Shown: one piece after another, positions 30,299 through 31,736 of the stretch
Position numbering within the stretch: position 1 is the stretch's first letter
Layout: each line of letters starts with the position of its first letter
NCBI RefSeq assembly: GCF_021412625.1
Contig: NZ_JAKCFI010000001.1
Location: 434,001-498,000, forward strand
DNA: 64,000 nt
DNA from: Myxococcus stipitatus
GTDB taxonomy: Bacteria; Myxococcota; Myxococcia; Myxococcales; Myxococcaceae
Direction: 5' to 3'
The notes under the pieces: model-generated
Seen by the model: the letters and a program-made list of their open reading frames with translations, nothing else
What the model was told of the DNA's origin: nothing
Databases searched by the model: none
Program-made: the position numbers and the translations under genes

Positions 30299-30607
30299 AT
30301 GAACCGCAACCCAGGCGTGACGGCGCTGCTCCCCGTGGAGGTCGAGTTCCAGAAGGAGAAGGCGCAGGGGCTGCGGCGCACCGGTGAGAAGCTGGAGCAG
30401 GCGCTCGCGGCGCTGGCGAGCGCGGAGCACGCCCTGGGGCCGGTGGGGGCTCCGGGGCGGGCCGCGCGGTTGCTGCGCTACACCGAGCTGCGCCAGGAGG
30501 CGGAGCGGCAGCGCTGGTACCTGATGGTGCAGCGCGAGGCGTGCGGCATGCGCAACCACACCGAACTGGACCTGTTGTTCCCGATGCCGCCCCGCGTCTG
30601 GGAGTGA
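30299..30607 (+). CDS. small helical protein of unknown function
   Basis: 102 residues, strongly helical and charged (EFQKEKAQGLRRTGEKLEQA, RYTELRQEAERQRWYLMVQR), probably a short coiled coil, ending MPPRVWE. No signal peptide or membrane segment. Codon usage fits the genome and a GAGGGGG stretch directly precedes the ATG. Convergent with the DUF423 gene, seven bases apart. Confidence 0.6.
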   Translation: MNRNPGVTALLPVEVEFQKEKAQGLRRTGEKLEQALAALASAEHALGPVGAPGRAARLLRYTELRQEAERQRWYLMVQREACGMRNHTELDLLFPMPPRVWE

Positions 30608-30614
30608 GCCGGGG

Positions 30615-30989
30615 TCAGGGGGCGGAGCGCCAGGCGGCGATGGCGAGCAGGACCCAGCCGACGAGGAAGCCGGTGCCGCCCAGCGGGGTGATGGCCCCGA
30701 GCGCGCGGACGCCCGAGAGCGCGAGCGCGTAGAGGCTGCCGGAGAAGAGGACGATGCCCACGAGCATGGCCCAGCCGGCTCCGGAGAGGAGGGAGGAGGG
30801 GCGCAGGGTGCCGAAGAGGCCCACGGCCACCAGTCCGAGCGCGTGGTACATGTGGTAGCGCGCGCCGGTCTCGAAGATGACCAGGAGGTCGGGGGAGAGG
30901 CGGGCCTTGAGGCCATGCGCGCCGAATGCGCCCGCCGCCACCGCCAGGAACGCGTTCACCGCACCGAGGACGAGCCACCACCGCATCAT
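30615..30989 (-). CDS. DUF423-family inner membrane protein
   Basis: 124 residues with four membrane helices. The opening GAVNAFLAVAAGAFGAHGLK and the later FETGARYHMYHALGLVAVG and LFSGSLYALALSG are the diagnostic stretches of the YgdD/DUF423 family. Role unknown. The ATG at 30989 is followed directly by a second ATG; an AAAGG element precedes it. Confidence 0.88.
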   Translation of the reverse strand: MMRWWLVLGAVNAFLAVAAGAFGAHGLKARLSPDLLVIFETGARYHMYHALGLVAVGLFGTLRPSSLLSGAGWAMLVGIVLFSGSLYALALSGVRALGAITPLGGTGFLVGWVLLAIAAWRSAP

Positions 30990-31082: not shown

Positions 31083-31736
31083 ATGACATCCCCCACTTTT
31101 ACTCCTTCCCCCGAGCCGCTTCCCTTCGAGCTGCGTCCGTCCTCCATCCAGGGCACGGGCGCGTTCGCCACCCGCCGCATCCCCAAGGGGGCGCGCATCA
31201 TCGAGTACATCGGTGAGCGCATCACCCAGGAGCAGGCCGACCTCCGTTACGACGACGAGGCGATGGGACGGCACCACACCTTCCTCTTCAACCTGGACAA
31301 CAAGACGGTGCTCGACGCGGGCACCCTGCACAACGAGTCGCGGTACATCAACCACTCGTGTGAGCCCAACTGCGAGGCGCTCATCGAGAAGGGACACATC
31401 TACATCTTCGCCCGCCGCGCCATCGCCGAGGGCGAGGAGCTGGTCTACGACTACGCCTACGAGCGCACGCCGGACATGGGACCGGAGTCGGAGGCCCTGT
31501 ACGTCTGCAAGTGCGGCTCTGCCCGGTGCCGGGGCACCATCCTCGCCCCCGAGAAGAAGGCCCCCGCCCGGAAGAAGAAGGCCCCGGCGAAGAAGAAGTC
31601 CGGCGTGAAGAAGGCGGACGCCAGGGCCGCGAAGAAGACGCGGGGCAAGAAGGGCGCTCCCGAGAAGCGCGCGACGAAGAAGGCCGGGGGGCGGAAGAAG
31701 GCCGCCTCGGGCGGTCGCAAGCGCTCCGGGCGCTGA
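31083..31736 (+). CDS. SET-domain lysine methyltransferase with H1-like tail
   Basis: 217 residues. Residues about 15-140 form a SET domain: GTGAFATRRIPKGARIIEYI, the SAM/active-site RYINHSCEPNCEA and the closing GEELVYDYAYE. A post-SET-like cysteine cluster follows (CKCGSARCRG), as in eukaryotic protein lysine methyltransferases. From about 155 to the end the chain is almost only Lys, Ala, Arg, Gly and Pro (KKAPARKKKAPAKKKSG), like histone H1 or bacterial H1-like nucleoid proteins. This suggests a DNA- or nucleoid-associated methyltransferase, or one carrying its own tail as substrate (inference). No neighbouring gene explains it. Confidence 0.88.
   Translation: MTSPTFTPSPEPLPFELRPSSIQGTGAFATRRIPKGARIIEYIGERITQEQADLRYDDEAMGRHHTFLFNLDNKTVLDAGTLHNESRYINHSCEPNCEALIEKGHIYIFARRAIAEGEELVYDYAYERTPDMGPESEALYVCKCGSARCRGTILAPEKKAPARKKKAPAKKKSGVKKADARAAKKTRGKKGAPEKRATKKAGGRKKAASGGRKRSGR

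Follow-up and report, generated by a model that had tools for sequence, protein, structure and literature searches.

The question raised by this locus is what a eukaryote-like SET methyltransferase with a strongly basic tail might do inside a soil bacterium. The 64,000-nucleotide stretch of Myxococcus stipitatus DNA analysed here (the window; host genome size 10.1 Mb) contains, at 31083..31736 of the forward strand (as for all features below unless stated), an open reading frame encoding a 217-aa protein, which the ORF, Pfam and its orthologues identify as a predicted SET/post-SET protein-lysine methyltransferase with a basic C-terminal arm. The frame is a real gene, with an ATG start and GC3 of 0.92 versus GC2 of 0.51, and in each of the 26 further congeneric genomes examined the match to the protein begins at residue 1. 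Among named relatives Myxococcus dinghuensis is the closest: its protein is 91% identical in the core (140 of 154 residues) and shares 46 of the 63 tail residues. A DUF423 gene (30615..30989, reverse strand; PF04241, 1.6e-29) lies divergently across a 93-bp gap, any functional link between the two being only putative. The same divergent pairing of neighbours is kept in 18 of 20 Myxococcaceae loci, all but L076 and L077. A small ORF of 102 aa without a Pfam match (30299-30607) is found near both genes in 13 of these 20, whereas in L069-L079 and L081 little of the wider neighbourhood survives. The same genome encodes a second SET-domain protein (L002, G000:C2:263025-263333; 57.5 bits), whose ORF contains neither the post-SET cysteines nor a basic arm.

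The SET domain comprises residues 24-124 (31152..31454) and scores 88.8 bits against a curated cut-off of 22.4 for PF00856 (3.6e-25) in a Pfam search of the window protein. Both catalytic motifs, NHxxxPN and ELxYDY, are intact (NHSCEPN and ELVYDY). The first is part of NHSCEPNC, residues 90-97 (31350..31373), and YDYAYE, residues 122-127 (31446..31463), closes the domain, which is followed by the post-SET cysteines C142-x-C144-x4-C149 (31506..31529). Residues N90, H91, C93, P95, N96, C97, Y122, D123, Y124, C142, C144 and C149 are invariant among 23 aligned members, namely the window protein and 22 loci from named records. The loci behind this alignment were found by peptide patterns covering residues 55-70 and then confirmed by tblastn, so the catalytic residues played no part in their selection; a second residue count, over 78 members, is partly circular, since its rows were chosen with the motif pattern. 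The active site and the CxC...C cluster named in the preliminary description are thus both present, and the unrelated, non-catalytic SET subgroup that it had set out as the contrary outcome did not appear. We take C93 of NHSCEPNC to be the expected fourth zinc ligand of the post-SET site, Y124 to occupy the catalytic tyrosine position and Y122 the Phe/Tyr switch position. In SET biochemistry, a tyrosine at the switch position predicts mono- or dimethylation. With CxCxxxxC after the SET domain and the cysteine in NHSC, the protein is, by its sequence, of the post-SET class, and zinc binding is predicted.

A family signature, RYDDEAMGRHHTFLF, is found at residues 55-69 (31245..31289). In alignments of the relatives, the stretch RYDDxxMxRHHTFLF separates the family from the eukaryotic chains shown, and its conservation in the locus alignments is partly circular because the peptide search used that stretch. 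Of 78 rows, many drawn from profile searches, 77 have H65, a residue within this stretch. Among solved structures, KMT2A was matched by phmmer at 2e-22, and the relatives are ordered with KMT2A-D and yeast SET1 first, followed by EZH1/2, ASH1L, NSD and SETD2. An AlphaFold model with a mean pLDDT of 59.7, in which the post-SET region and the tail have low confidence, is good enough for fold recognition only; Foldseek against the PDB placed the MLL1 SET domain first (E 1.7e-13), with a TM-score of 0.48 normalized by query length and 0.68 by target length. The term eukaryote-like, given earlier to this SET domain, is apt in that KMT2/SET1 proteins are the closest in both sequence and fold among solved structures.

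Residues 155-217 (31545..31733) form the Lys/Arg/Ala-rich arm, predicted to be disordered from its composition and low pLDDT. Its 63 residues (K20, R8 and A14 against D1 and E2) carry a net charge of +25, in agreement with the Lys/Ala/Arg tail of about 60 residues first noted. Over the last 60 residues the window protein reaches +26, against +12 for the next best and a median of 0 among 288 gene calls of the same genome, in an approximate background of crude, mechanical, GC3-based calls of at least 100 aa over 464 kb (the window plus 20 stretches of 20 kb). It is the only one of the 288 at +16 or above, and the charge of the arm is far from chance. When the arm was compared with Pfam, no H1, Hc1 or Hc2 match was obtained, only SET and PRDM2_PR at E up to 1, and a BLAST search for tail homologues in its own genome returned nothing except itself below E 1. 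The name 'histone-H1-like' therefore suits the tail in composition but, as far as the sequence indicates, not in homology.

The charge of the arm recurs across relatives. Five groups supplied the 102 distinct relatives that were read, and 99 of these have a C-terminal tail of net charge at least +4; the 102 were selected by a sequence pattern from at most the 30 best matches of each genome search, and most second Gemmatimonadota paralogs, which are weaker matches, lie outside the set. All 50 tails from the Myxococcaceae, taken broadly so as to include Archangium and Hyalangium, carry +11 to +27 within 23-81 aa. Tails of at least +4 are likewise found in 30 of 31 Gemmatimonadota proteins, 17 of 19 from the Zixibacteria phylum, one Planctomycetota MAG and one Sorangium MAG. 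Tail length across all groups varies from 3 to 128 aa, with 12-18 aa in some members. Three proteins of the 102 fall below +4 (L201, L133 and L241). Thirteen further members, missed by the pattern, were inspected, and ten have tails of at least +6, the others being L220, L244 and L249. The basic C-terminal tail is absent from L133 and L241, whose N-terminal arm is at most weak, and the tail of L249 reaches +2 only. Two Gemmatimonadota proteins, L201 and L220, which the tree pairs as sisters with support 99, have no basic C-terminal tail, their last residues being APLATGG and APKTTGE respectively. Provided that translation begins at the in-frame Met, each has instead a Lys/Arg-rich N-terminal arm of some 45 residues; the N-terminus of L244 is also basic. 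Most members thus retain the charge, whereas the sequence of the arm, its length and even the terminus that bears it vary. Many Myxococcus and Corallococcus tails begin with PAR(K/R)K, and clear repeats are seen in some Corallococcus tails (KSKAASKSKAAS).

As a control, the last 20 residues of 28 neighbouring ORFs in Gemmatimonadota carry charges of -2 to +5. In the own genome, 27 of 288 such stretches reach +4, so that, taken by itself, this threshold is lenient for short tails; the case for the arm draws its strength from consistency across members. No arm was present in any of the five Burkholderiales/Xanthomonas relatives read (of 45 records), which end 2-7 aa past the post-SET region. The existence of armless related SET proteins means that the arm is dispensable for SET function in general.

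The gene is found in all 27 examined genomes of the window's genus, and Myxococcus xanthus strain AM003 (L109) carries an orthologue. A search at the level of the order matched 65 of 145 genomes at E<=1e-15, 64 of them strongly (at least 209.8 bits) and one weakly (60.3 bits). At the level of the phylum, a profile search matched 86 of 195 genomes at 1e-6, with a gap in score between 223 and 54 bits, and we take the matches from 54 bits down to be other SET proteins. Thirty-four loci were confirmed in named records: 23 of the Myxococcaceae/Archangiaceae type and 11, at 51-63% identity, from MAGs labelled Gemmatimonadota, Zixibacteria, Planctomycetota, Sorangium and Myxococcales. Counted among the 23 is a record titled Comamonas sp. 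KCTC 72670 (L108, BNCN01000014.1), which contains a Myxococcus-type orthologue (79% identical) and whose title is probably wrong. A wider profile (A2, at 1e-25) found members in 94 of the 249 Gemmatimonadota genomes searched, which were sampled evenly from a larger group; for the Zixibacteria phylum the count was 28 of 132. Two SET members per genome are common among the Gemmatimonadota; L193 and L194 are examples of a divergent second SET/post-SET paralog with a weaker basic tail. In L246 and L248, from the Zixibacteria phylum, a tandem duplication has placed two SET/post-SET units in a single reading frame. Another 45 records, none reaching 60% identity, are remoter relatives on plasmids from Burkholderiales and a single Xanthomonas; an H-NS family gene lies near the plasmid SET gene of Burkholderia savannae (L253) and a DNA methyltransferase gene near that of Caballeronia grimmiae (L255). 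The SET protein gave no match in phage records and no confirmed relative in viral contigs, the latter searched with two peptide patterns only, and a phage or mobile origin was rejected on these grounds. A role as a defence system was also rejected, PADLOC giving no match.

The phylogenetic tree (85 rows, 149 columns, SH-aLRT support only, five plasmid rows left out) was rooted on three eukaryotic rows, whose position has a support of 35, with few columns and long branches. One set with support 92 unites 16 Myxococcaceae rows with 32 from Gemmatimonadota; within it, 15 of the Myxococcaceae rows group together (support 90), and L076 lies among the Gemmatimonadota rows instead. Exchange between Myxococcota and Gemmatimonadota is possible. 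Horizontal transfer from eukaryotes, an origin first put forward for testing, found no support in its recent form: as the near origin of the gene it was discarded, since the closest relatives found are other bacteria, 51-63% identical outside the family, and the gene keeps a conserved place within Myxococcaceae. Judged by these comparisons, the family is bacterial and not a recent eukaryotic import.

Lys-rich segments are not restricted to the SET protein. A Lys-repeat DNA pattern matched the own genome 25 times (11 forward, 14 reverse), against 15 for the reversed-pattern control. The proteins under the matches include TfoX_N, DUF1801, an AhpC/TSA peroxiredoxin, an EF-hand protein and two unidentified ones, and we read two others as DNA topoisomerase I (TopA) and ribosomal protein S21; the Lys/Ala-rich tails or heads are those of own-genome loci L167, L169, L170, L172, L174, L176 and L183. 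A Lys-rich tail is odd on an AhpC/TSA peroxiredoxin. These segments are thus an add-on that occurs on several proteins of this organism, including but not confined to nucleic-acid proteins, and their presence on the peroxiredoxin and the DUF1801 protein makes such a tail no proof of a nucleic-acid role.

The EF-hand protein (L160, G000:C1:385694 region) has a Lys/Ala/Arg-rich, HC2-like N-terminal half (39.1 bits against a cut-off of 40) and could possibly be a calcium-responsive nucleoid protein. Across the order, matches to its EF-hand part were obtained in 53 of 145 genomes, of which 37 belong to the 64 that have a strong SET orthologue and 16 do not. It is absent from groups g3, g6 and g7, all of which have the SET enzyme, and as an obligate substrate or partner it was rejected, since 27 of the 64 strong-SET genomes gave no match. 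The gene neighbourhood was also rejected as a guide to the substrate: of four window genes compared with the 11 loci from other groups, SET alone gave a match, the DUF423 gene, the 102-aa ORF and an acyl-CoA dehydrogenase-like gene being unmatched there, and the ORFs at eight of these 11 loci, compared by eye without a family search, have no common theme.

We consider the chances slightly better than even (about 0.55) that this protein is an intracellular, SAM-dependent protein-lysine mono- or dimethyltransferase whose disordered basic arm tethers it to DNA or RNA. The SET domain and a zinc-bound post-SET loop would form the channel for SAM and lysine, the intact residues point to SAM-dependent lysine methylation, and the tyrosine at the switch position, by comparison with known families, would give mono- or dimethylation. 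The arm would bind polyanions without sequence preference and keep the enzyme at the nucleoid or at ribosomes, where it would methylate the lysines of adjacent basic, nucleic-acid-bound proteins. We infer zinc binding, activity, degree of methylation and binding of DNA or RNA by the arm from such known families. The substrates are a guess, most likely basic nucleoid or ribosomal proteins, with nucleoid neighbours placed first and the arm itself and ribosomal proteins next. This reading is supported by the invariant catalytic residues and cysteines, by the nearest solved relatives being histone methylases and by the conserved charge of the arm, together with the N-terminal arm that takes the place of the tail in L201 and L220, the armless ends of the five Burkholderiales/Xanthomonas relatives, the Lys-rich tails of the proteins read as TopA and S21, and the published precedents of HupB, of Lys-rich low-complexity regions and of cpnSET given below. 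Against it count the low confidence of the predicted model, the three members without a strong basic tail (L133, L241 and L249), the fact that no neighbour tested is common to other phyla, and the report, in a passage of PMC2904774, that the Chlamydia trachomatis enzyme NUE did not methylate the H1-like protein Hc1.

The same passage (PMC2904774) states that NUE automethylates, on lysines outside the SET domain, and that mutants in these are less active, which is a precedent for the arm being mainly the enzyme's own substrate, with automethylation toggling activity or binding. The arm adjoins the post-SET region, is rich in lysine and starts with PAR(K/R)K in many Myxococcus and Corallococcus proteins, all as such a role would have it; yet no arm lysine motif is common across phyla, the arm is as short as 12-18 aa in some members and N-terminal in L201 and L220, and what is conserved is charge and not a target site, so that we find this reading rather unlikely. 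The polyanion could instead be ribosomal RNA, in which case ribosomal proteins or translation factors would be methylated. Ribosomal and RNA-binding proteins are also among those that carry Lys-rich low-complexity segments (PMC6821194, in part), the protein read as S21 in the same genome has a Lys-rich tail, and the arm has a weak match, of 21.1 bits with the cut-off at 1783, to the terminal part of a ValRS model. This idea is nevertheless doubtful, as no translation gene was seen to be kept beside the SET gene at the loci examined and histone methylases are the nearest solved relatives.

Myxobacteria are predators, and the protein might in principle be secreted to methylate histones in eukaryotic prey or hosts, with the arm as a nuclear localisation signal; NUE, BaSET and BtSET are reported, in a section of PMC10117894, as effectors that act on host histones. 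We regard such a role as very unlikely: no export signal is evident by eye in the first residues, the gene is present throughout the examined genus as well as in part of the Gemmatimonadota and Zixibacteria-phylum genomes, and the LegAS4/AnkI effector model NF043024 scores only 40.9 bits against a cut-off of 550. Neither the Gemmatimonadota nor the Zixibacteria phylum is known to be host-associated. That the tail is a functionless, neutral low-complexity expansion arising from AAG-repeat slippage would fit the Corallococcus repeats and the spread of 23-81 aa in Myxococcaceae, but it is scarcely credible given that 50 of 50 Myxococcaceae tails stay within +11 to +27, that positive charge is the rule elsewhere and that two members without a C-terminal tail carry a basic arm at the opposite terminus.

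If the enzyme is indeed tethered through its arm, the family may tentatively be seen as part of an endogenous chromatin-modifying system of several free-living bacterial phyla, in which methyl-lysine marks on the nucleoid would regulate compaction or transcription independently of any host, and the SET/post-SET enzyme would be held on the nucleoid by a charge-conserved, position-independent arm. Neither the myxobacteria nor the other groups in which the family was found are known as pathogens. Its members are chromosomal, and most of them have an arm of a predicted nucleic-acid-binding type. The arm-bearing family, its spread and its movable arm were not found in print in the open-access literature searched; what is new here is a basic arm, kept by its charge, that is found twice at the opposite end of the protein. 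The effects of protein modification on bacterial DNA processes and the modulation of chromatin proteins are posed as an open question in part of a published text (PMC10117894), and, according to a passage of PMC3980110, lists of bacterial SET proteins go back to at least 2007 and a bacterial origin has been argued for these proteins. Bacterial SET enzymes are known (cpnSET, NUE and BaSET), and those covered in the cited literature are mostly effectors against host histones. Because a Myxococcus xanthus strain carries the gene, methylation of a bacterial 'chromatin' can be tested in an easily handled species.

Compared with known systems, the protein has in common with KMT2A-D and SET1 (COMPASS), its best matches among solved structures, the SET core, the N, H and Y residues, the switch tyrosine and the post-SET CxC...C. 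These are eukaryotic proteins that, in the chains shown, have other residues at the RYDDxxMxRHHTFLF stretch and no basic arm, the matches stopping at the post-SET region. KMT2/SET1 enzymes depend on partners. The archaeal SET enzyme Go1-SET, likened here by description only, reportedly acts on the DNA-associated chromatin protein MC1-alpha. cpnSET and NUE (CT737) are bacterial SET enzymes likened to the family through their published description and not by sequence; cpnSET is described as methylating Hc1 in a passage of PMC3980110, NUE differs in being a secreted effector of an intracellular parasite, and results on Hc1 methylation are called discordant in part of PMC6426960. The Burkholderiales/Xanthomonas proteins share SET and post-SET regions, with cores 36-43% identical among the 20 records listed, and differ in the YDY ending, which is IDY or LDY in four and YNY in one. 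BtSET of Burkholderia, a reported histone H3K4 methylase (PMC10117894, in part), is likened to these records by description and may not be among the 20. Relatives carry the PGAP name 'SET domain-containing protein-lysine N-methyltransferase'. Mycobacterial HupB and Streptomyces TopA, different proteins without a SET domain, share the Lys-rich C-terminal tail. Passages of the respective papers report that this tail is required for nucleoid association in HupB (PMC5676037), that the lysine repeats of TopA confer processivity (PMC7398561) and that Lys-rich low-complexity regions are enriched in DNA-binding proteins (PMC6821194).
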